A DNA stretch of 42,678 nt from a virus. Of this stretch, positions 4,034-38,784 are shown piece by piece. The first letter of the stretch is position 1. Each line of letters begins with the position of its first letter. The position numbers and the translations under genes were made by a program. The notes beneath the pieces are model-generated. The model was given only the letters and a program-made list of their open reading frames with translations, did no database searches and was not told the DNA's origin. The stretch covers positions 1 through 42,678 of IMG/VR virus record IMGVR_UViG_3300036852_000066. The stretch is one strand, 5' to 3'.

Positions 4034-4638
4034 TGGTTGCCGCAGCCCCGCTCAATCGGGCCAAGCATGGATTCCGCACGCAAGCGCTGGGCAATCGTTC
4101 GGCCGTCGACGGTTATGAACGGCAGAAGGACGACTTTTATCCAACGCCGCTGCGGGCAATCGAAGCGCTATTGAAGGCCGAGTCCTTCGAGGGCGATATT
4201 TGGGAGCCGGCCTGCGGAAATGGGGCCATTTCCAAGGTCTTAGAGGCAGCGGGACATCGAGTCGTAAGCAGCGATTTGGTTGATCGCGGATACGGCGAGA
4301 TCGGCCACGACTTCCTGATGGAATGGAAGCCGCGTGCGCCGAACATCATCACGAACCCGCCTTTCAAGCTGGCGGTGCCCTTCGTGCGGAAATCACTCGA
4401 TCTCTACAGCGGCAAGATCGCGATGCTGCTCAAGATTGCCTTTCTTGAGGGCCGTGAGCGCGCTGATCTGTTCGCCAATTCGCCGCTTGCCCGTGTCCAT
4501 GTCTTTTCGCAGCGGCTTGCATTCGTACCGGGCGGGTCATTACCCATCCGCAAGCTGGACGGCGGCGGCATGATGGCCTTCGCCTGGTTCATCTGGGAAC
4601 GCGGATACGCCGGCAAGCCAACGCTGGGGTGGCTCTAA
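4033..4638 (+). CDS. Phage DNA N6-adenine methyltransferase-like protein
   Basis: Carries the S-adenosylmethionine motif EPACGNGAI (residues 58-66) and the catalytic NPPF (108-111), the two hallmarks of N6-adenine/N4-cytosine DNA methylases. FYPTPLRAIEALL before motif I is typical of stand-alone phage methylases. At 201 aa it is compact, with little room for a target recognition domain. No restriction partner lies beside it, so it probably protects phage DNA from host restriction or affects gene timing. Start at 4033 overlaps the previous stop; a GTG just upstream is a weaker choice. Confidence 0.85.
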   Translation: MVAAAPLNRAKHGFRTQALGNRSAVDGYERQKDDFYPTPLRAIEALLKAESFEGDIWEPACGNGAISKVLEAAGHRVVSSDLVDRGYGEIGHDFLMEWKPRAPNIITNPPFKLAVPFVRKSLDLYSGKIAMLLKIAFLEGRERADLFANSPLARVHVFSQRLAFVPGGSLPIRKLDGGGMMAFAWFIWERGYAGKPTLGWL

Positions 4639-5096
4639 TGAGACGCCACGACATGGACACGATCAAGGTCCGCGCGATCCCGGTTGGTCGCGGCGGGCAC
4701 GTTACGATTGTTGACGCCGAGGACTATGAGAAATTCGCCGGCATAAAGTGGTCTGTTTCAGCGCACCGTTACGCGCATCATTATCGTGCCGGCTATTTGC
4801 ACCGGCTGATTATGTCCGCCCAGCCCGGCCAGACAATCGACCACATCAATGGCGATGGCATGGATAACCGCAGATGCAACCTGCGCATTTGCACCCAAGC
4901 ACAGAACGTCCGCAACAAGCAGGTGATTGGCATTTCATTTAACAAGCACGCCAAAAAGTGGACGGCCCAGATCAAGTTGAACGGCAAGAAAATCCACCTT
5001 GGCTGTTTTTCAAACCCCAACGACGCGATCACGGCGCGCCGTGTTGCCGAGGAATTGCACTTCGGGGAGTTCCGTTGGCGTGAGGCATCAGAATGA
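4638..5096 (+). CDS. HNH homing endonuclease with AP2 DNA-binding domain
   Basis: The HNH part is HRLIMSAQPGQTIDHINGDG with MDNRRCNLRICTQAQNVRNK after it (about residues 55-95). An AP2-like domain follows (ISFNKHAKKWTAQIKLNGKK, then IHLGCFSNPNDAITARRVAE). This HNH-AP2 order is standard for free-standing phage homing endonucleases. The start overlaps the methylase stop as TAATG, and its own stop overlaps the next gene as ATGA, so it has been absorbed into the operon without visible damage to neighbours. Confidence 0.9.
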   Translation: MRRHDMDTIKVRAIPVGRGGHVTIVDAEDYEKFAGIKWSVSAHRYAHHYRAGYLHRLIMSAQPGQTIDHINGDGMDNRRCNLRICTQAQNVRNKQVIGISFNKHAKKWTAQIKLNGKKIHLGCFSNPNDAITARRVAEELHFGEFRWREASE

Positions 5097-16237: not shown

Positions 16238-17209
16238 ATGGCCGTCCCGGCTGCAACCACCCAAACGTACCAGCAGATTGGTATCCGAGAGGACCTGTCT
16301 GACGTGATCTACGACATCTCGCCGACCGAAACGCCGGTCGTGTCGCGCATCTCGCGCGTCAAGGCGAAGAACACCAACCACGAATGGCTGACCGACGTTC
16401 TCGCCGCGGCGGCCTCGAACCGGCGAATCGAAGGTGATGACGCGACGTTCCTCACCGCCGATCCGCGTACCCGCCTCAACAACTACTGCCAGATCAGCTC
16501 GAAACCCGTTGTCGTGTCGGGCACCTCGCGTGCCGTCGATACGGCCGGCCTGGACGATGAGTTCTCGTACCAGATCGCAAAGCGCGGGCGCGAGCTGAAG
16601 CGCGACATCGAGTTCGCCGTCACGCAGAACCAAGCGAGTTCGGCCGGCGGCGCCGGCACCGCTCGTTCGTCGGCGTCGATGGAGAGCTGGATTGCTTCGA
16701 ACCGCACCAGCGTCGGCTCCGGCACGGCGCAGACCACGCCCGGATTCTCGTCCGGCACCGTGGCGGCGCCGACCGATTCGACTGTGACCGGCACCGTTGC
16801 CGAAGCGCAGTTGAAGGTCGTGATCCGCGAATGCTGGTCGGTTGGCGGCCAGCCCACAATGATCGTGGTCGGCGCGGCGACCAAGCAGAAGCTCTCGGGC
16901 TTCTCGGGCATCGCCACGCAGTACCGCGAGAACAGCGGCGTCAAGCAGGCCACCATCCTGGCGGCGGCTGCGGTGTACGTCTCCGACTTCGGCGAGTTCA
17001 GGATCGTGCCTGACCGTTTCAGCCGCGACCGTACGCTGCTCGGCCTCGACATGGAGTACTGGGCGCTTGCCGAACTGCGCGGCATGACCACGCAGGAGCT
17101 GGCGAAGACCGGCGATTCCGACAAGAAGCAGCTGATCACCGAGTGGACGCTTGAGGCCCGCAACGAGAAGGCAAACTTCAAGATCACCGACATCAACCCG
17201 GCCCTGTAG
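16238..17209 (+). CDS. Major capsid protein, SU10-like (DUF5309 type)
   Basis: The start (TTQTYQQIGIREDLSDVIYD, then SPTETPVVSRI), the segment YCQISSKPVVVSGTSRAVDT and the motif YQIAKRGRELKRDIEFAVTQ match the SU10 major head protein group, an HK97-fold family. The later part (VYVSDFGEFRIVPDRFSRDR) is the usual P-domain strand. Length 323 aa is normal for the family. It follows the scaffold gene and is followed by a terminator, as expected for the most abundant product. Confidence 0.93.
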   Translation: MAVPAATTQTYQQIGIREDLSDVIYDISPTETPVVSRISRVKAKNTNHEWLTDVLAAAASNRRIEGDDATFLTADPRTRLNNYCQISSKPVVVSGTSRAVDTAGLDDEFSYQIAKRGRELKRDIEFAVTQNQASSAGGAGTARSSASMESWIASNRTSVGSGTAQTTPGFSSGTVAAPTDSTVTGTVAEAQLKVVIRECWSVGGQPTMIVVGAATKQKLSGFSGIATQYRENSGVKQATILAAAAVYVSDFGEFRIVPDRFSRDRTLLGLDMEYWALAELRGMTTQELAKTGDSDKKQLITEWTLEARNEKANFKITDINPAL

Positions 17210-17216
17210 GCCGTGC

Positions 17217-17248
17217 GGGCGGGGGCCTTAAAACCTCCGCCCGGTTTT
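17217..17248 (+). terminator. Hairpin with short T-run after the capsid gene
   Basis: GGGCGGGGG (17217-17225) pairs with CCTCCGCCC (17234-17242), with one wobble, around CCTTAAAA, and GGTTTT follows. It probably lowers transcription of downstream genes relative to capsid rather than stopping it, since no clear promoter follows. Confidence 0.65.
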
Positions 17249-17263
17249 CTGAGGACCAGGCAG

Positions 17264-17593
17264 ATGAGACGTCTCCTAAACTATGACCCGATCACCGGCC
17301 TTACGCTCTGGCACGAATACGATCCGCTGACCAAGGACACCCACATCCACACGACGTATTCACATGAGCAGACCGATGCTGTGCTGGATATGAACCATCG
17401 CATGGCAAACCATGACGACGGCTATGACAGCACGAAGAGCTGGCGGCGCGTGGCCGAAATCCCGATGAGCGTCCTGCATTGGTTCATGGTCAATAAGGGC
17501 ATCGACCTGATCCGCTGCGATTCCAAGACACTAAAGCGCATTATGAACGACAGCGACTGGCGCAAGCTGCGCACGGCGCACTGGCGCGTCTGA
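17264..17593 (+). CDS. Conserved podovirus protein downstream of capsid, 109 aa
   Basis: RRLLNYDPITGLTLWHEYDP, then a central VAEIPMSVLHWFMVNKGIDL and a C-terminal LNDxxYRxLRT-like segment (MNDSDWRKLRTAHWRV) follow a pattern found next to capsid genes in many podoviruses. A structural or head-completion role is likely but not established. Start at 17264, after GAGGACCAGGCAG. Confidence 0.7.
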   Translation: MRRLLNYDPITGLTLWHEYDPLTKDTHIHTTYSHEQTDAVLDMNHRMANHDDGYDSTKSWRRVAEIPMSVLHWFMVNKGIDLIRCDSKTLKRIMNDSDWRKLRTAHWRV

Positions 17594-17597
17594 CCGG

Positions 17598-18950
17598 ATG
17601 ACACCGCAAGAAATCTTCGCGCTCTACGAGGCCGGCAACTTCAACGAGGCCATGCGGGCCGCGTCTGATCGCTTGAACGATCATCCGACCGACCCGGAGA
17701 CGCTGTTCTTGGTCGGGCAGATTTACCTGAAATCACAGCGCCATGGCCTGGCTTATAATTTCTATGAGAGGATCGCGCAGCTTGAGCCGTCGAATGCGAA
17801 CGCCTGGAACAACATGGGCCACGCGATGCATGGCATGCAGCGGTACCGGAAGGCATCGCATTGCTTCGTGCGATCGCTGGAAGCGGGCGGCGATCGCTTC
17901 GCGCCCTATAACAACCTCATCCTGATGCATCAAAACCTGGGCGACACGGAGCGCGCGAAGTCGCTGTTCCGCATGGCGCACTGGCTGGCCGAGAACGACA
18001 ACGATCTGGCCGATTGCACAGGCAACGTCTCGCTGTCGCTGCTGGCAACGCGGCAATGGGCGACCGGCTGGGATGCCTATGAGCACCTAATCCGCCCGGA
18101 CAAGCTCAGGAAGGAAGTCGAGTATGAGCCGGACTTACCGCGATGGGATGGCTCACCTGGCGGTGAGGTTGTCGTTTACGGAGAGCAGGGGCTCGGAGAG
18201 GAGTTCCTGTTCGCATCCTGCATCCCCGATGCCATGCGCGACGTGTCGGTCATCATGGATGCCGACCCGCGACTTGCATCGCTGTTCCGCCGGTCGTTCG
18301 GTTGCACGGTCTACGGCACTCGCTTCAACGTCAAGCGCCCGTGGCTAAAGCATCATCGGCCAAAGGCCAAGTGCGCCATCGGCAGTCTCGCAAGGTTCTA
18401 TCGCCGCGATGAGCGAAGTTTCCCGCGTCAGCCGTATCTAAAGCCAGATCCCGAGAAACGCGCGATGGCCCGTGCGCTGCTGAGCCAGTGGCCGGGCCGC
18501 AAGATCGGGCTGGCTTGGACTGGCGGCAAGCGCCATACCCGCGAGGCCGACAGGAGCCTGACGATTGAGCAGCTGGAGCCGATCCTCAGCATTCCCGGTT
18601 GTACATTTGTCAGTTTGCAGTACAATGGAGATTACTATGAAGCCCCGGACCAGCGGATCAGGCATCTCCCGATCTTCACGCAAAGCAAGGACTACGGAGA
18701 CACGGCAGCTCTCGTGTGCGAGCTGGACATGGTCGTTTCCGTTACGACGGCGGTTGCATTCCTTGCTGCCGCCGTTGGGACTCCCGGACATGTGCTTGTC
18801 CCACGATTCCCAACATGGCACTGGCCGCGTCATGGTGATTTTCCATGGGCCGTTCTTTCTCTTCACCGACGCATCGGAGACGATTGGACCTCCGTCATCT
18901 CGGAAGTCAGGCAGGCGCTCATGCATTCGCAACGAGAGGCCGCGCAATGA
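17598..18950 (+). CDS. TPR-domain glycosyltransferase (FlbA/OGT-like architecture)
   Basis: Residues 1-150 are tetratricopeptide repeats (for example EALFLVGQ-like, NANAWNNMGHAMHGMQRYRK). Residues 195-440 are a GT-B-type domain: VVVYGEQGLGEEFLFASCIP, RKIGLAWTGGKR and LDMVVSVTTAVAFLAAAVGT are the nucleotide-sugar binding signatures shared with bacterial TPR glycosyltransferases such as FlbA, which is linked to flagellin glycosylation. TPRs usually bind the protein acceptor. It starts 4 bases after the previous gene and opens the sugar block inside the morphogenesis operon. The protein acceptor is inferred, not seen; an envelope acceptor is also possible. Confidence 0.85.
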   Translation: MTPQEIFALYEAGNFNEAMRAASDRLNDHPTDPETLFLVGQIYLKSQRHGLAYNFYERIAQLEPSNANAWNNMGHAMHGMQRYRKASHCFVRSLEAGGDRFAPYNNLILMHQNLGDTERAKSLFRMAHWLAENDNDLADCTGNVSLSLLATRQWATGWDAYEHLIRPDKLRKEVEYEPDLPRWDGSPGGEVVVYGEQGLGEEFLFASCIPDAMRDVSVIMDADPRLASLFRRSFGCTVYGTRFNVKRPWLKHHRPKAKCAIGSLARFYRRDERSFPRQPYLKPDPEKRAMARALLSQWPGRKIGLAWTGGKRHTREADRSLTIEQLEPILSIPGCTFVSLQYNGDYYEAPDQRIRHLPIFTQSKDYGDTAALVCELDMVVSVTTAVAFLAAAVGTPGHVLVPRFPTWHWPRHGDFPWAVLSLHRRIGDDWTSVISEVRQALMHSQREAAQ

Positions 18951-19699
18951 ACACTGAAGCCCTGATCACCGAGGCCCGCAAATACGTCAAGGCCACGCCG
19001 AGCGACGGCGTCCGGCGCAACATCCAGATCCGCGCCAAGAATGCCGGCGACCTTGAGGACGACATTACGCTGGCGTGCTGGACGTTCCTCACGCACGAGC
19101 CGGGCACCCGTAACGACTACGAGGCGATGCTGCCGCACTGGAAGGATCAGGTTAAGCGGACCAACCCGAGCGCCGCTTGGCTGGTCACGCGGCAGCCTGA
19201 CGGCAATATGTTCCACCGCGCCATGTCGATGTGCGCGCACGTTCATTCGTCGCTGTTCACCGTGCCGACCGTGTTCCTGGATGTTGACGCGTTTCCGAAC
19301 TGCGATCTGGCGGAGATGATCGGCAAGGTGAAGGACGTCGGGCTGACCGTGCGCGATATGCCCGGCCTGATGCCGGTCAATGAAGGTGTGATCATCGCGC
19401 GGCCGTCCGAGGCCACCAAGGCGTTCTTCATGGCCTATGTGGCGACATTCGAGGCGCTGCAAGGTTTCCTGAGTGATGCTGACTGGCGTTGGTTCGGAGG
19501 GCAACTGGCGCTGAATGCGCTGCACGACAGCATCGTGGGACCATCGGTGCGATATCTGCCTTGCGCACAGTATAACTTCTCGCCGGATACTGAGGCTGAC
19601 ATGGAGCCGGCGGTGCTGGACACGAAAACGATCCTTCACCTGAAGGGACCCCGCAAGCAGCTGTTCGAGCGCGTGAAGGCCTATCAGAATGCGCGTTAG
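18947..19699 (+). CDS. Glycosyltransferase, GT-A fold with DxD motif
   Basis: TVPTVFLDVDAFPNCDLAEM carries the metal-binding D-V-D (112-114) at the end of a hydrophobic strand, as in GT8-like and related enzymes. It is followed by GLMPVNEGVIIARPSEATKA, the usual acceptor-loop region, and LALNALHDSI. At 250 aa it is a single domain with no membrane segment, so it works in the cytoplasm. ATGA overlap with the TPR enzyme suggests coordinated production. Confidence 0.75.
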   Translation: MNTEALITEARKYVKATPSDGVRRNIQIRAKNAGDLEDDITLACWTFLTHEPGTRNDYEAMLPHWKDQVKRTNPSAAWLVTRQPDGNMFHRAMSMCAHVHSSLFTVPTVFLDVDAFPNCDLAEMIGKVKDVGLTVRDMPGLMPVNEGVIIARPSEATKAFFMAYVATFEALQGFLSDADWRWFGGQLALNALHDSIVGPSVRYLPCAQYNFSPDTEADMEPAVLDTKTILHLKGPRKQLFERVKAYQNAR

Positions 19700-20441
19700 C
19701 GTCATAGGCGCCGGCCGCTGGGCTTCGGTCTATCGCGGCCTGCTGAGCGCGCACGAGCTGACGGACTTCAACCCGGAGGCTGCGATCGTCGTGAACCGCG
19801 CCGCGCATCACGAGAGCAGCGCCGCGAAGATGCTGGAGGCCGGCATCCCGACGCTGGTCGAGAAGCCATTCGCGCTGTCGGTCGCGGGCGTGCAACGGCT
19901 GGATCAGCTGGCCTACGCCGGCAAAGTCTATCTGGCGGCGGCGCACGTGCTGAAGTTCAACGAGCATCTGGACGACTTCGCGGCTAATCTAAGTCTGTCG
20001 GCAAATAAGCCGCACTACGCCAGCATCACCTGGACCGACCCGAAGGAGGGCGGGCACTATGATCCGACGCTGCCGCTCGTGACCGACATCATGCCTCACG
20101 TCGCCAGCATCATCGACACGCTGTTTCCCGGTCCTCCGCCGGTACTGGAGGGCTGGTCTAACTTCGGTGGCGACTTCCGGTTCATGGTCGGCCACCTGTG
20201 CGTTGACGTGCATATGGAGCGCGATGCGGACGAGCGGAAGCGCGTCGTCGAAGTGGCCTGCGGGCGCACAGTGCATCGGCTAGACTTCACGAGCAACCCG
20301 ACCGACCACAACCCGCTGTCGCGCCTGATCGAGAAGTTCCTGGAGGGCGCTGCTGGCGGCCACAAGGACCATCGGCTCGACACGCGGCTGGCCTTCATGG
20401 CGGCGGGGCTGACGGAGCGGTGTTTGGAGAAGTGCGGATGA
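19689..20441 (+). CDS. Gfo/Idh/MocA-family sugar oxidoreductase, short
   Basis: The N-terminal Rossmann motif VIGAGRWASVY (5-15) binds NAD(P), and PTLVEKPFALSV contains the EKP signature at 58-60 with its catalytic Lys. The C-terminal beta-sheet domain is present but short: 250 aa compared with the usual 330-380. HxxDIMPHVASIID (TDIMPHVASIIDTLF) matches the region that carries the family His. It probably oxidises or reduces a nucleotide-sugar. It overlaps the previous gene by 11 bases and the next by 4. Confidence 0.8.
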   Translation: MRVSVIGAGRWASVYRGLLSAHELTDFNPEAAIVVNRAAHHESSAAKMLEAGIPTLVEKPFALSVAGVQRLDQLAYAGKVYLAAAHVLKFNEHLDDFAANLSLSANKPHYASITWTDPKEGGHYDPTLPLVTDIMPHVASIIDTLFPGPPPVLEGWSNFGGDFRFMVGHLCVDVHMERDADERKRVVEVACGRTVHRLDFTSNPTDHNPLSRLIEKFLEGAAGGHKDHRLDTRLAFMAAGLTERCLEKCG

Positions 20442-21730
20442 TCAGTATGCAGCAAGGCACGTGCCCGTATTTGCCATCTCGCCACGATGCCGCCCCCGGC
20501 CCGCTGACGCATTGCCAAATCTGCGGCAGCGCAGACCTGTTCGAGATCATCGACCTCGGCCATCAGCCGCTGTGCGATTCGCTGCTGACCAAGGAGCAGC
20601 TACAGCAGCCCGAGATGACATATCCGCTGGCGCTGAATATGTGCCGCGCGTGCGGGCTGGCGCAGCTTAGCTACATCGTGTCGGGCAAACTGGTCTATTA
20701 TCCTGACTATCCGTACCGCTCCGGCATCTCGGCGCCGCTGCGGGACTATCAGCGAGCCTTTGCGGCGGATGTGGTGGCGAAGCTGGGGACGCCGCGCGAT
20801 TCGTTCGTGGTGGACATCGGGAGCAATGATGGCACGCTGCTAAGCGGTTTTAAGGCGCTTGGGATGCATGAGTTGGGCGTTGAGCCCACGCGCATCGCAA
20901 ACATCGCGAACGCTGATGGTATTGAGACATGGCAACGTTGCTTCAACGAGCAAGCCGCGCGAGAAATCCGGAACGACTGCGGCCCTGCCGCCGTCATTAC
21001 CGCCACCAACGTCTTCGCCCACATGGCCGACCTTGGCGAAGTGATGCGCGGCATAGAGGCCTTGCTCGCCCCGGACGGCGTGTTCATCACGGAATCGCAC
21101 TACCTGCTGGACGTGTTGGAGAAGAACCAGTTCGACACGATTTACCATGAGCATATCCGCACATACTCGCTGCGGTCGCTGTGCGCGCTGTTCGAGCAAT
21201 ACGGGATGGAGGTGTTTGATGTGCAGAGAGCCGAACGATACGGAGGAAATGTTCGGGCCTACGTGGCTCGCAAGGGAGCGCGCCAAGTTAGCGGAGCCGT
21301 CGTTAGTCTGCTTACATACGAAGCAAATGCGGGCCTTTTTGAAGGCGCTCGATGGGCCTCATGGCGGACCAGAATCTACAATCAGCGCAGCATGTTCATG
21401 CACTGGCTACGCAACGCTCGCTCGAATGGAGCCACAACAGTCGTCGGCAAATCCTGCCCCGGCCGGTCGTCCACGCTGCTGAATTATTACGGTGTCACTC
21501 CGGACGTAATGCCCTATCTGGCCGAGCTGCCGAACAGCCTGAAGCTCGGCATGTATCTGCCGGGCAAACATATCCCCGTGGTTGACGAGGAGCGGCTGTT
21601 TCGCGAGCAGCCGGACTACGTAGTCCTCTGCGCATGGCACTACGCGGACGTGATCATGAAGCGGCTGCGTGAGGCGGGGCTGCGGTCGAAGTTCGTCATG
21701 CCGTTGCCGACGTTTCAGGTCATCGACTAA
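20438..21730 (+). CDS. Sugar C-methyltransferase (TylCIII/NovU-like)
   Basis: Three domains in the standard order: an N-terminal zinc site (Cys 26, 29, 69, 72 in CQIC and CRAC), a class I methyltransferase core with DIGSNDGTLL (126-135) and FDTIYHEHIRTYSLRSL, and a C-terminal Rossmann-like domain with VVGKSCPGRSSTLLNYYGV. Members add a methyl group to carbon of an NDP-4-keto-deoxysugar. The 431-aa length is normal. Start at 20438 overlaps the previous stop (ATGA). With the oxidoreductase next to it, this suggests synthesis of a methyl-branched sugar, with the precursor supplied by the host. Confidence 0.88.
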   Translation: MISMQQGTCPYLPSRHDAAPGPLTHCQICGSADLFEIIDLGHQPLCDSLLTKEQLQQPEMTYPLALNMCRACGLAQLSYIVSGKLVYYPDYPYRSGISAPLRDYQRAFAADVVAKLGTPRDSFVVDIGSNDGTLLSGFKALGMHELGVEPTRIANIANADGIETWQRCFNEQAAREIRNDCGPAAVITATNVFAHMADLGEVMRGIEALLAPDGVFITESHYLLDVLEKNQFDTIYHEHIRTYSLRSLCALFEQYGMEVFDVQRAERYGGNVRAYVARKGARQVSGAVVSLLTYEANAGLFEGARWASWRTRIYNQRSMFMHWLRNARSNGATTVVGKSCPGRSSTLLNYYGVTPDVMPYLAELPNSLKLGMYLPGKHIPVVDEERLFREQPDYVVLCAWHYADVIMKRLREAGLRSKFVMPLPTFQVID

Positions 21731-22401
21731 TGGCCCTCGAACAACCTGCATTTGATGTCCTGAAATCGCTGGCCCCGTGCAGACTTTTGTCGCTCGGATA
21801 CCCAGACCTCTTGCTCACACAATCGTTCGACGTGAAAGAGGCCAAGGACTGGCAGGCCGTCGCCGCTTGGCACCATTGGGACCACGGCCCGATCTACGAC
21901 ACAGAAGCCGTGTTCCGCGAGTTCGGCATCGAGGCAGTCTATATCGACATTCATGCCAGCCGCGGTTGCGAACTGGTTTATGACCTGAATTACGATGTCG
22001 ATTGGCATGCGCCGAAGATGGACGTCGTGCTGGACGCTGGTACGACCGAGCACGTTTTCAATATCGCGCAGGCTTGGCTGACTATGCGCCGGCTGTGCCG
22101 TGTTGGCGGGCATCTCATCCACATCAATCCGATCAATGCCACCAACCACGGTTTTTGGAGCGTCAGCCCGACTGCCTACAAGGATTTCTACAGCGCATTC
22201 GGCGATACGATCCTGAAGGCGGAGATTCACGCCGGGCCGCTCGGCAAGCGCGAGATTTATGAAATGCCGATGGCGGAGAGGTTTGGCGCACCCAACAACT
22301 CCTGGTCGCTGGTGGTGGCGCAGCGCAGCGCACGAGCTGCGCAGTCGTATCCGCAACAAAGCAAATATCTCAAAAACCCGAATTTGAAAGGCGTTTTATA
22401 A
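21730..22401 (+). CDS. Class I methyltransferase-like protein, 223 aa
   Basis: CRLLSLGYPDLLLT and VDWHAPKMDVVLDAGTTEHV look like strands 1 and 4 of a methyltransferase; the following NIAQAWLTMRRLCRVGGHLI is the typical helix leading to strand 5. The glycine-rich motif I is not obvious, so it is either divergent or inactive. HINPINATNHGFWSVSPTAY resembles sugar-linked methylases found in glycan clusters. It overlaps neighbours by one base at each end. Confidence 0.6.
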   Translation: MALEQPAFDVLKSLAPCRLLSLGYPDLLLTQSFDVKEAKDWQAVAAWHHWDHGPIYDTEAVFREFGIEAVYIDIHASRGCELVYDLNYDVDWHAPKMDVVLDAGTTEHVFNIAQAWLTMRRLCRVGGHLIHINPINATNHGFWSVSPTAYKDFYSAFGDTILKAEIHAGPLGKREIYEMPMAERFGAPNNSWSLVVAQRSARAAQSYPQQSKYLKNPNLKGVL

Positions 22402-22796
22402 TGCCAAAAATCGCGTCTCTCAGAGATCGATTGTTTGAAAAAATTATCTTCGAGCCAAACTCCGGGTGTTGGTTATGGACCGGATGCGGTGATGGTCGAT
22501 ATGGGCAAATTTGGGACAAGACTACGATGAAAAAAGCCCATCGCGTGATGTGGGAATTGGGGATCGGCCCAATTCCGAACGGTATCGAAGTTTGCCATAA
22601 GTGCGACATTGGATTCTGCTGTAATCCTGATCATTTGTTTTTGGGAACTCACCAAGACAACATGATCGATATGGTGCGCAAGGGGCGCCAGACTTACGAA
22701 TACGGCCAGAACGCGAATAGATTTATTACTGGGAAATGGTGTGGCCGGTATCGTAACAAGAAATATATCCCGGCTGCGGAGCGTAGGTATGTCTGA
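22401..22796 (+). CDS. HNH endonuclease inside the sugar block
   Basis: CWLWTGCGDGRYGQIW, AHRVMWELGIGPIPNGIEVC and HKCDIGFCCNPDHLFLGTHQ form the standard short phage HNH pattern with a zinc site. The DNA is more AT-rich than on either side, with AAAAAATTATC near the start, pointing to recent insertion. It fits exactly between two genes: TAATG with the previous stop and an 8-base overlap with the next start, so neighbours are intact. Confidence 0.9.
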   Translation: MPKIASLRDRLFEKIIFEPNSGCWLWTGCGDGRYGQIWDKTTMKKAHRVMWELGIGPIPNGIEVCHKCDIGFCCNPDHLFLGTHQDNMIDMVRKGRQTYEYGQNANRFITGKWCGRYRNKKYIPAAERRYV

Positions 22797-23250
22797 TATC
22801 GATATCGATTTGGCGTTTTTGTGGGTTGATTTAAATGATCCCTGGTGGAAAACCGCCACGACCGAGATGCTGCGCTCCGCTCGCCGGCAGATGCCGAACG
22901 CCAACATCGTGCAGATGTCCGACTATGGCGCGCGTCTGCATCCGTTCGCCGACATGCTGTTCACGGCATCCATGGAATGCCCGCCGGAGACGTTGGGCGA
23001 TTTCAGGACGGTCATCATGATGGAGTATCTGAAGCAGGCCAGCCGCCCGGTCATTTATACCGGCGGTGATGTGATCTGGTGCCCGCTCGACAAGGCGGTT
23101 GGCGAGTATCGTGTGACGCCATACGGGGCAGCCGTGCATTTCAGGGGCGACCGGGACGGGATGCTCCGGTTCGCGCGGTCACTGGATGGCGGGGAACCGT
23201 TCAAGGAGCTGGCGCCAGGGCTGGACGAGATCGAGGTGGGGTATGCTTAA
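22789..23250 (+). CDS. Divergent GT-A-like protein, 153 aa
   Basis: LAFLWVDLNDPWWKTATTEM, then PNANIVQMSDYGARLHPFAD and SRPVIYTGGDVIWCPLDKAV follow the strand order of small GT-A glycosyltransferases, with GGD where DxD would be. It resembles the 18947 gene in layout but is shorter, so it may be a partner or a reduced copy. It overlaps the next gene by 8 bases. Glycosyltransferase assignment is tentative. Confidence 0.5.
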   Translation: MSDIDIDLAFLWVDLNDPWWKTATTEMLRSARRQMPNANIVQMSDYGARLHPFADMLFTASMECPPETLGDFRTVIMMEYLKQASRPVIYTGGDVIWCPLDKAVGEYRVTPYGAAVHFRGDRDGMLRFARSLDGGEPFKELAPGLDEIEVGYA

Positions 23251-23974
23251 GGTAATGATCGGTCACGATACGCGCATCCCCATACAAACCAATGTCGCGG
23301 CGAATTCGGTCTACCGTCATTCGACCGCGCCGGTCAGCATTACTCCGCTGGTGCTAAGTCAACTGCCGATCAAACGTAGAGGGCTTACAGAGTTTTCGTT
23401 TGCTCGATTTCTCACGCCATGGCTGGCAGGCTTCGATGGCCCCGCACTATTCATCGATAGCGATGTGATCGTGCGTAGCGATGTGGCCGAGTTGTTCGCG
23501 CTGTTCGACCCGAAATACGCTGTCCAGGTCTGCGACATTCACCCTCAGTTTGAGCAAACGGCGGTCATGTTATTCAACTGCGGACACCCGGACAACAAGA
23601 TGCTGACGCCTGAGTTCATCGGAACCACCGACAAGCATCTGCACCTGCTGGGCTGGACGAATTGCGGTGGCCATCTGCCCATGAATTGGAACCATTGCGC
23701 CGGTTATGCCCGCCGGCAGCCCTTGGAACGGCTGCACCTGGTGCACTACACCATGGGGTCGCCGATTTGGCCGCATACCGCTGATTGCGAGCATGCCTCA
23801 GCATGGCATGACGAACGGAAAAACATGTGCTATGTTGGGGTTAGCTGGCCTGACTTGATGGGCCAATCGGTTCATGCCGCGAGGGACCATAGCGGCAACC
23901 TAGTGCCGAAATATCGGCTGGAGGTTGCTCTTGGCACTCGACGGAACCAAGGCGGGGCTCAGGACATCGGTTAA
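23243..23974 (+). CDS. Glycosyltransferase, GT8-like
   Basis: MLKVMIGHDTRIPIQTNVAA starts the nucleotide-binding strand; EFSFARFLTPWLAGFDGPAL and FIDSDVIVRSDVAELF give the GT8 pattern, with D72-x-D74 for metal binding. HxxGxxKPW-like elements appear weakly near VHYTMGSPIWPHTADCEHAS. Length 243 aa is near the family minimum. It closes the sugar block and overlaps the adaptor gene by 44 bases. Confidence 0.75.
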   Translation: MLKVMIGHDTRIPIQTNVAANSVYRHSTAPVSITPLVLSQLPIKRRGLTEFSFARFLTPWLAGFDGPALFIDSDVIVRSDVAELFALFDPKYAVQVCDIHPQFEQTAVMLFNCGHPDNKMLTPEFIGTTDKHLHLLGWTNCGGHLPMNWNHCAGYARRQPLERLHLVHYTMGSPIWPHTADCEHASAWHDERKNMCYVGVSWPDLMGQSVHAARDHSGNLVPKYRLEVALGTRRNQGGAQDIG

Positions 23975-24551
23975 CGCCTGGACCAAGCGGGACTTCACGG
24001 ACGCTGAAATCGACGATTTCATTGTTCTGTGCGAGGCCGAAGTCAATCGCGTCATGCGCCTGCCGATGCAGGAAACCAGGGACGCGGCTTTCACTATCAA
24101 CAGCGAGTATACGGCGCTCCCAACCGGCTTCCGGGAGTTCCGCTCGCTATTCATCACCAACTCGCCCAGCCACCCGCTGAAGCCGATCAGCCCGCAGGCG
24201 GCGACTGACTATTTCGACGCGGCCACGTCCGGCACGCCGCTGGACTACATGGTGACGGGCTCCAACATCCGCGTGTTCCCGGCGCCGGATGGCACGTATA
24301 CCGCCGACATCATCTACTACGTCGGATTCGACGCGATCACGAACACCACCACGAACTGGCTGTTCGACAATCATCCCGACGTTTACCTGTGGGGCGCCCT
24401 GATGCAGACGGCGCCCTACATCGGCGATGATCCGCGCGTGTCGATCTGGCAGGGCAAATACACCGATGCCGTCAAAGCCGTGATCGATGAGGGGAACCGC
24501 ACGCGGTGGCGTGGCGGCCAGCCGATGCAGCGGATTAGGGTCAATCCGTGA
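23931..24551 (+). CDS. Head-tail adaptor protein
   Basis: The sequence (AWTKRDFTDAEIDDFIVLCE, then EYTALPTGFREFRSLFIT and LWGALMQTAPYIGDDPRVSI) matches podovirus adaptors of the SU10/P22 gp4-like type: helical hairpin, beta region, and a final helix. Twelve copies would sit under the portal. TTG at 23931 is the likely start, with GGAGG six bases upstream; the TTG at 23925 touches the GGAGG. Confidence 0.78.
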   Translation: MALDGTKAGLRTSVNAWTKRDFTDAEIDDFIVLCEAEVNRVMRLPMQETRDAAFTINSEYTALPTGFREFRSLFITNSPSHPLKPISPQAATDYFDAATSGTPLDYMVTGSNIRVFPAPDGTYTADIIYYVGFDAITNTTTNWLFDNHPDVYLWGALMQTAPYIGDDPRVSIWQGKYTDAVKAVIDEGNRTRWRGGQPMQRIRVNP

Positions 24552-25042
24552 TGACGGATCGGAACGGCATCGCTGTTTATGCAGGGCTTTTATCAGCGCA
24601 TGAAATCGAAAGATTCTGGGCAAAAATCTCCATTATGAAACCAATGGAGTGCTGGCCATGGAATGGAATAGGCAGTCGATACGGTCAGTTCTACATCAGC
24701 CGCAAGGGGCGGACGAAGAAGATCGGCAGTCATCGATTGGCTTATGTCCTGACTAAGCGTGCGCTGGAGCCTGGAGAGGTAATAAGACACTTATGTGATA
24801 ATCCACTTTGCTGCAACCCGGCACATCTAGAGCCTGGAACTCAAGCTGACAACGTAGTCGACAAAATGACCAAGGGGCGTCAGGCTTGGGGCGAGCGTCA
24901 GGGACTTTCTAAGCTGACTAATGACCAAGTTGCAGCGATCCGGCGCGCGACAGGTAAGCATCGCGACATTGCTGTAATCTTCGGAGTTCACCAAACGACC
25001 ATCTCTCGTATCAAGCGCGCGGCCACATGGAGGCAATCTTGA
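24551..25042 (+). CDS. HNH endonuclease with C-terminal HTH
   Basis: CWPWNGIGSRYGQFYISRKG, SHRLAYVLTKRALEPGEVIR and HLCDNPLCCNPAHLEPGTQA give the phage HNH motif. The tail LTNDQVAAIRRATGKHRDIA then VIFGVHQTTISRIKRAATWR is a helix-turn-helix, a common DNA-binding add-on. It lies precisely between the adaptor stop and the nozzle start, with overlaps of 1 and 4 bases. The DNA is more AT-rich than its neighbours. Confidence 0.9.
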   Translation: MTDRNGIAVYAGLLSAHEIERFWAKISIMKPMECWPWNGIGSRYGQFYISRKGRTKKIGSHRLAYVLTKRALEPGEVIRHLCDNPLCCNPAHLEPGTQADNVVDKMTKGRQAWGERQGLSKLTNDQVAAIRRATGKHRDIAVIFGVHQTTISRIKRAATWRQS

Positions 25043-37728: not shown

Positions 37729-38784
37729 TTATTTGCGGTCTTTTGCGGACACTTGACGGGCGTTTCCGGTCACTGTTGCACTCTTGTTCACGGTCGCGTG
37801 TTCACTTTGAACAAAAGAGAACTGTGCTAGGGCGTCCGTCGCATCTTGCAGATATTCCGGGCTGTGCTTCGCATAGACCCGTTCCGTCACGTCGGTGGAC
37901 GAGTGGCCCAGCTGCAAGCTGATCTGCCGCATGGGGACGCCGCGCTCGGCCATCCAGGTGGCGGCGGTGTGGCGCAGGGTGTGGGGCGTCACGTCCTCGA
38001 GCTCGGCGCGGACGCATGCCGCAGCAAAAGCGCGCTTCACGGTCTTGACCTTGCGCCGGCCCCAACTGACGACATAGACCGCACCCGGGTTTTTAGCCTC
38101 ATGGGCGGCCTCCAGCGCAGATCGTAGCTCGGGCGTCATCTTGACCAGAGGGCGGCCCTTGTGAGTCCTGGCGCGGCCCAGCGGGTTGAAATTAATTAGC
38201 CCCCGATCCCACAGGATTTGTTCCCATGTCAGATCCAGGATTGCCCCCGGCCGGGCTCCGGTGTGCAGGGCGATCATCACATAGAGTTTGAGGTGCGGCT
38301 GGTCGCACGCGGCCACTAGGCGCGCGGCTTCGTCATGGGACAGCCAACGGTCGCGGGGCTCCCCATTGGGCGGCATCCAGATGAACGGGGCCTTGGTCAG
38401 CCAGTTGATGCGCTCGCAATGGATCAGGGCGGCGCGGAGGATTCCCATCTCGGTGTGAATGGTCTTGACCGCAGCGCCGCGGGCCTTGGGGTAGGTCTCG
38501 CAGGCTTTCTGGTCGATCGCCGCCGGGGACATGGAGCCGAAGTGCCGGGACAGTGCAGGGCGGGGAATGACCTGGGGCCTGGCCTCGTAATAGGCGGCGA
38601 GGCAGTCGGCGACCGTGACCAACTTCGGCCGCGCTGGTTCCTTGATTTTGGCTAGGAGCGCGGCGAATTTCCTCTGGGCCTCGTCGGCGTCTCTTGTATG
38701 GAGCGAATTGCGTCTTGGACGGCCGTTCTCCCGCCAGTAGACGCACCAAATCCTTCGATAGCAGACAAGCTGGTAGTCTCGCAT
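37729..38784 (-). CDS. int: Tyrosine integrase
   Basis: Catalytic residues appear in order: R178 in HTGARPG, H268 and R271 in HTLRHT, H294 in LGHSS, and the nucleophile Y304 in RVYAKH. The N-terminal part (RIWCVYWRENGRPRRNSLHT) is the arm-binding-like domain and a core-binding domain follows. 351 aa is normal. It points toward the att core just downstream, the standard layout. It overlaps the excisionase-like gene by 133 bases in another frame, so the two are tightly coupled. Confidence 0.95.
   Translation of the reverse strand: MRDYQLVCYRRIWCVYWRENGRPRRNSLHTRDADEAQRKFAALLAKIKEPARPKLVTVADCLAAYYEARPQVIPRPALSRHFGSMSPAAIDQKACETYPKARGAAVKTIHTEMGILRAALIHCERINWLTKAPFIWMPPNGEPRDRWLSHDEAARLVAACDQPHLKLYVMIALHTGARPGAILDLTWEQILWDRGLINFNPLGRARTHKGRPLVKMTPELRSALEAAHEAKNPGAVYVVSWGRRKVKTVKRAFAAACVRAELEDVTPHTLRHTAATWMAERGVPMRQISLQLGHSSTDVTERVYAKHSPEYLQDATDALAQFSFVQSEHATVNKSATVTGNARQVSAKDRK

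Follow-up and report, generated by a model that had tools for sequence, protein, structure and literature searches.

Organization of the locus

The sequence considered here, referred to as the window, is the whole of a 42,678-base IMG/VR virus record (IMGVR_UViG_3300036852_000066), and the element in question is a block of sugar-enzyme genes located among its head genes and anchored by a glycosyltransferase (GT) with tetratricopeptide repeats (TPRs), termed TPR-GT below. Eight intact plus-strand genes fill positions 17598-23974, the interval from the gene of a small protein, p3982, to that of the adaptor. Neighbouring genes of the block overlap each other, in most cases by 1 to 11 bases, and a gap of 4 bases separates p3982 from TPR-GT; the probable true starts are the overlap starts, four of which are internal to the open reading frames (ORFs) as listed. 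The block and the head genes that frame it are arranged as follows.

16238-17209, plus strand: major capsid protein (MCP), HK97 fold (phrog_1328, E 2e-94), with Pa223 and SU10 relatives; proposed acceptor
16700-16798, plus strand: Thr/Ser-rich loop NRTSVGSGTAQTTPGFSSGTVAAPTDSTVTGTV of the capsid protein, flanked by the spine and A-domain helices; possible site of glycosylation
17213-17593, plus strand: p3982, small protein without assigned function (phrog_3982, 1.9e-18)
17598-18950, plus strand: TPR-GT, a GT-B domain preceded by about five TPRs; the conserved gene that anchors the cassette
18947-19699, plus strand: putative distant GT8-like protein (GT-A, DxD), with relatives in 5 other loci
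19689-20441, plus strand: Gfo/Idh/MocA sugar oxidoreductase (family match 5e-9; EKP and D-x3-H motifs)
20438-21730, plus strand: sugar 3-C/5-C-methyltransferase (Methyltransf_13, _23 and _14)
21730-22401, plus strand: second methyltransferase-like protein, with relatives in two other cassettes (L040, L064)
22401-22796, plus strand: HNH_3 endonuclease (E 1.6e-14)
22789-23250, plus strand: short divergent GT-A-like protein (153 aa) with a GGD motif
23243-23974, plus strand: GT8-like glycosyltransferase with a FIDSD motif, partner of TPR-GT in phages and bacteria
23925-24551, plus strand: SU10-type adaptor (PF24175, 4.3e-30), right boundary of the cassette

The first-pass annotation of this DNA had named seven genes of the block, all of which are intact plus-strand ORFs at the place described, and had left out the HNH_3 endonuclease lying among them. 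The latter is a probable homing-type mobile intruder; its G+C content is 47% against 60.5% for the genome, the remaining block genes being closer to the phage average. The block stands far beyond chance, because the C-methyltransferase has a full-length family match (E 4e-78) and TPR-GT has relatives in the hundreds, the top-scoring ones with the gene order preserved. Megablast of the block against phage records gave no match.

TPR-GT is inherited with the capsid lineage

An alignment query built on TPR-GT and run against IMG/VR viral contigs showed that at least 571 stretches encode relatives. Only this query reached the family; single-sequence pattern scans of viral contigs for the C-methyltransferase, TPR-GT, the adaptor and the second methyltransferase of the window found no relatives. 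Among the best 80 of the at least 571 viral matches, the order MCP, p3982, TPR-GT, adaptor was present in 76, and the other 4 are contigs that start within about 1.1 kb of TPR-GT, where the order is unreadable. In 88 of 89 loci, p3982 separates the capsid gene from TPR-GT, the median distance to the capsid gene being 379 bases. When loci were recruited by capsid similarity alone (n = 97), 22 carried TPR-GT, 56 did not and 19 were cut off at the contig end. The presence of the gene requires 3 changes on a capsid tree of 79 rows, from which the loop columns were excluded.

Because so few changes are needed and the gene order is shared, TPR-GT was inherited with the capsid lineage and not inserted here, as the first-pass annotation had proposed for the block; only the sugar enzymes downstream of it vary. 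The description of the block as not a standard module also has to be revised, since, as far as gene order and similarity can tell, a large group of uncultured podoviruses carries TPR-GT in the MCP-p3982-adaptor interval as a feature of the whole lineage. The notable point is thus a capsid-linked TPR-GT that is found throughout a lineage and followed by a hypervariable glycan-tailoring cassette, of which the window is one elaborate example. The earlier suggestion that the block is a glycan module of the late genes, linked to the capsid and including a glycosyltransferase with TPRs, is supported. No description of TPR-GT in a phage capsid operon was found in the open-access literature, an absence that therefore carries little weight.

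Among annotated phage records, only MW202512 (Podoviridae sp., Manatee Spring), a metagenome-assembled podovirus, has TPR-GT in a capsid setting. Like the window, it contains a capsid gene, a TPR protein, an endonuclease, an FkbM methyltransferase, a “galT-like” relative of the GT8-like protein and the adaptor; it differs in having neither the Gfo/Idh/MocA oxidoreductase nor the C-methyltransferase, and its annotated capsid protein was not picked up by the capsid profile. Matches in Rhizobium phage RHph_X2_30 and MW202713 were inspected and set aside, as they lie in other genomic contexts. TPR-GT is absent from the cultured relatives that were inspected, namely phiM5, Venkman, ppBeUSDA76-2 and Octadecabacter DB virus 2. 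In phiM5 (L023, 7728-9038), a GDSL/SGNH hydrolase known from the virion proteome is encoded between the capsid gene and p3982; the region is therefore a general insertion site. Contigs binned to Nitrospiraceae and Thiotrichaceae (L114 and L159) carry TPR-GT together with phage adaptor and stabilization genes; they are likely phage or prophage and provide a possible lead to hosts.

Fold and conservation of TPR-GT

The AlphaFold 2 model of TPR-GT (predicted local distance difference test score 94) has a GT-B domain joined to about five TPRs within a single chain. In a whole-chain Foldseek search, the top matches were SPINDLY and XcOGT, enzymes of the OGT/SPINDLY kind (GT41), in which a TPR superhelix is likewise joined to GT-B. 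Sequence matches to solved structures (PDB, GT41/OGT included) are confined to the TPRs. In structure the GT half bears more resemblance to GT9 than to these enzymes; its structural alignment placed it nearest to GT9 and the protein O-heptosyltransferase TibC (3tov, Z 17.8; WaaF, 16.9; TibC, 16.3), and it shares with the GT9 heptosyltransferases and TibC/Aah both the fold and a GLGD-type motif. Unlike them, it has TPRs added and gave no match to PF01075 (Glyco_transf_9) in the Pfam scan. The GT half is strongly conserved over 65 viral relatives, with Q197, G198, G200, G304 and G310 invariant.

The closest functional parallel by layout, as distinct from sequence, is Caulobacter FlmG, a cytoplasmic enzyme with TPRs and GT-B whose TPR domain mediates the O-glycosylation of flagellin (PMC7591256). 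Both proteins are soluble, with an N-terminal TPR half and a C-terminal GT-B half, and the client of FlmG, flagellin, is itself a self-assembling surface protein. TPR-GT of the phage is shorter (450 vs 596 aa), adjoins capsid genes and belongs to a block without pseudaminic acid genes. A further link is given by the cellular relatives of TPR-GT. Of 12 bacterial genomes that contain flagellin genes, 4 have them roughly 1.5 to 8 kb away from an array of TPR-GT genes, a placement expected from the biology of FlmG. Bacterial TPR-GT genes (L111-L181) are often clustered, with 2 to 7 copies together, and many come from uncultured Betaproteobacteria.

The variable tail and its enzymes

The distance from TPR-GT to the adaptor ranges across loci from an overlap to 6,368 bases and is 4,975 bases in the window. 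Tail genes were grouped by clustering and assigned to families by Pfam scans. The families comprise small methyltransferases (31 and 12 loci), GT8-like proteins (19), GT9 (15) and the FkbM methyltransferase (10); a DegT aminotransferase, a HAD phosphatase and radical SAM proteins were also found in relatives. Judged by these predicted gene contents, the sequence behind TPR-GT is a hypervariable tail, and variation is restricted to the downstream sugar enzymes. The search for the same block in related podoviruses, proposed in the first-pass annotation, thus had a divided outcome: the TPR-GT anchor and the gene order recur, but the pair of Gfo/Idh/MocA oxidoreductase and sugar C-methyltransferase has no relative in any other cassette that was clustered.

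The match of the C-methyltransferase to D-mycarose 3-C-methyltransferase is full length, the zinc-binding (PF08421), S-adenosylmethionine-binding (PF13489) and C-terminal (PF08484) Pfam domains are all above cut-off, and the aligned catalytic Tyr, His, Tyr, Glu and His of TcaB9 are all kept. The similarity to the 3-C-methyltransferases MycC and TcaB9 (E 4e-78 to 2e-70) is set apart by the position of the gene in a phage late operon and its pairing with a Gfo/Idh/MocA reductase. The block contains no 2,3-dehydratase or other gene for deoxythymidine diphosphate sugars, and therefore the substrate of the C-methyltransferase must come from the host. The oxidoreductase matches PF01408 and has EKP at residue 58 and DIMPH, which fits D-x3-H, at residue 133.

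The three further glycosyltransferases of the first-pass annotation turned out to be of unequal standing. The 23243 protein scored 15.4 bits against PF01501 (GT8), below the cut-off of 24.3; the profile of its family, in which D72 and D74 are invariant in 13 members, reached WbbM at 1.3e-4 and GT8 at 0.0032, and by these profile comparisons it is classed as GT8-like. The 18947 protein, whose DxD is invariant in 6 relatives, one of them matching PF03407 at 0.011, was linked to the GT8 family by hhalign with a probability of 76% and appears to be a more distant GT8-like protein. The 22789 protein gave a weak link (probability 40%) and may be a remnant.

In phages, the GT8-like family occurs solely together with TPR-GT: it was found in 46 of 99 loci with TPR-GT and in 0 of 74 without. 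Where loci with TPR-GT span the region from terminase to adaptor, 30 of 38 have a GT8-like gene, beside TPR-GT or upstream of terminase; the upstream position is less well tested because few loci lacking TPR-GT extend a long way upstream of terminase. The partnership extends to bacteria, where a GT8-like gene was present in the fetched flank of 35 of 71 TPR-GT loci, mostly within about 100 bases of TPR-GT and typically no more than about 40 bp away.

Proposed mechanism and candidate acceptor

On balance, we consider it probable that the block is a cassette for cytoplasmic protein O-glycosylation of the phage’s own virion, most likely of the MCP. In the proposed mechanism, the TPR half would hold a virion client and the GT-B half would transfer the first sugar to Ser/Thr, by analogy with FlmG. 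The GT8-like protein, and perhaps the 18947 protein too, would extend this sugar, and the methyltransferases would cap the glycan. A methyl-branched sugar would here be made from a nucleotide-keto-sugar of the host by the C-methyltransferase together with the Gfo/Idh/MocA reductase. Modification would take place before or during assembly of the virion. We infer the enzymatic activity, the donor sugar, the acceptor protein and site, and a benefit such as shielding, altered adsorption or stability. Given the cassette reading, some virion protein is the rather probable target, while the capsid loop itself is a tentative choice. Glycans on capsid and tail tube subunits, at the C-terminus, have been described for mycobacteriophage virions in the part of PMC12619734 that refers to Freeman 2023. 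Compared with what is given there, the present system would involve a TPR-GT in podoviruses, an internal loop and a variable tailoring cassette, with a glycan predicted from genes.

The Thr-rich capsid loop differs between capsid proteins from loci with and without TPR-GT. Its mean number of Ser/Thr residues, in an 80% non-redundant set, is 11.2 with TPR-GT vs 8.0 without. In the relatives scan, a subclade with TPR-GT nested in a clade without it has TTP in the loop, and its nearest relatives lacking TPR-GT do not. The loop reappears with one independent regain of TPR-GT, which, on sequence comparison, makes a link to glycosylation suggestive. An independent-contrast test of loop against TPR-GT offered only 2 pairs on well-supported branches, both usually in the same direction, so that significance was unreachable. 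Whole-protein Ser/Thr content was rejected as a marker of the client, as the adaptor, like the capsid protein, showed no difference and the scaffold and portal were reversed; the local density in p3982 was weakly raised (p 0.03).

The motif [ST][TVS]P (“TTPG” type) occurs in the loop of 34 of 43 capsid proteins with TPR-GT vs 3 of 36 without (Fisher 1.4e-10), a contrast to be set beside several points that weigh against the proposal: the motif was picked after inspection of the data, the capsid set is structured by lineage, and the association amounts to at most 2-3 independent changes. Whole-protein Ser/Thr content is equal in capsid proteins with and without TPR-GT, and the client could just as well be p3982 or the adaptor. 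On the side of the enzyme, sequence comparison of the GT half with solved transferases gave no match. Moreover, position 201 of the GLGD-type motif is Glu in the TPR-GT of the window and Asp in 64 of 65 viral relatives, and the protein also departs from them at 166, 222, 291, 367 and 393. On the analogy of GT9 enzymes, Asp201 is a candidate catalytic base; among 68 bacterial relatives the residue is Asp in 62 and Glu in 3. The activity of this copy is uncertain because of Glu201 and the other departures, and, to judge from these residues, the enzyme may be slower, changed in its donor or inactive.

Alternative explanations

These departures bear on an explanation that we hold to be unlikely, in which TPR-GT serves chiefly as a chaperone of capsid assembly, or is no longer catalytic in this phage, and the downstream enzymes are cargo. 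The TPR domain, the invariant place among head genes, Glu201 with the other changes, the HNH intrusion and the short GT-A remnant all fit it. However, the GT half is strongly conserved over the 65 relatives, Glu at 201 recurs in 3 of the 68 bacterial copies, the rest of the block consists of intact genes, and the catalytic residues of the C-methyltransferase have been kept.

No better placed is the modification of a host client, flagellin or pilin for instance, which would occur either in the lysogen or at a late stage of infection and might serve, among other ends, to prevent superinfection. FlmG acts on flagellin, cellular relatives of TPR-GT lie near flagellin genes in some genomes, and the integrase indicates that the phage may be temperate. 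Against this stand the position in the late operon, the association with the capsid loop and the strict linkage of TPR-GT to the capsid gene, which persists across deeply diverged capsids and has no counterpart for the integrase or lysogeny region.

Conversion of the host envelope, with O-antigen or capsule altered so that progeny or rivals fail to re-adsorb, is still less probable. Envelope glycan loci commonly contain GT8, GT9, Gfo/Idh/MocA and C-methyltransferase families. However, by hydropathy the block encodes no strongly hydrophobic membrane protein, flippase or lipid-linked transferase, and the client-binding TPRs of the anchor enzyme suit a protein acceptor; the constant capsid linkage also weighs against it. 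These considerations agree with the earlier view that left both targets open, and now place the virion protein ahead of the host surface. Glycosylation of phage DNA by phage transferases is known (Pyle 2024, in the part of PMC12619734 that refers to it), but decoration of DNA against restriction is very improbable here, as no hydroxymethyl-pyrimidine synthase, dioxygenase or modified-base gene was present among the window genes scanned, the genes are late, and TPR with GT-B resembles protein transferases.

Extended to the lineage, the cassette reading is a tentative proposal: a widespread lineage of podoviruses, so far uncultured, might glycosylate its shells by means of a cytoplasmic TPR O-glycosyltransferase of the flagellin type, passed on together with the capsid gene, with the TTPG loop as acceptor and a variable cassette that re-tailors the glycan in each phage. 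If this is true, capsid glycosylation would be handed down within a large group of environmental phages and not be a curiosity of mycobacteriophages, and glycan chemistry would be its fast-evolving part, a form of capsid surface variation. It would also bear on the persistence and adsorption of phage particles and offer a tool for cytoplasmic protein O-glycosylation. In that case it also supplies a concrete and testable acceptor site, and a set of soluble enzyme, client and cassette that could be rebuilt in a laboratory strain.

Other features of the window

Judged by their matches, the head genes of the window are of the LUZ24/phiM5/SU10 kind. The model of the capsid protein gave Z 26.0 against the Pa223 capsid (9ny2) and about 21 against SU10. 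Two more features were recorded.

Portal: phrog_1216 (match 4e-145)
37729-38784, minus strand: tyrosine integrase

The integrase gene makes the phage, on this sequence evidence, probably temperate. In some other loci (L267, L268, L269 (6148-7085); L266, L287) the capsid gene is either divided between two ORFs or missing its 5' part, with additional sequence within the match, and an intron or insertion in these capsid genes is possible. Three free-standing HNH_3 endonucleases are encoded in the window (22401-22796, 24548-25042 and 4629-5096), and the first two, which lie among the late genes, have a G+C content of 47% and 52% vs 60.5% for the phage. At the edge of the window, positions 1-200 contain 15-base tandem repeats, which fits a pentapeptide-repeat protein encoded on the minus strand.

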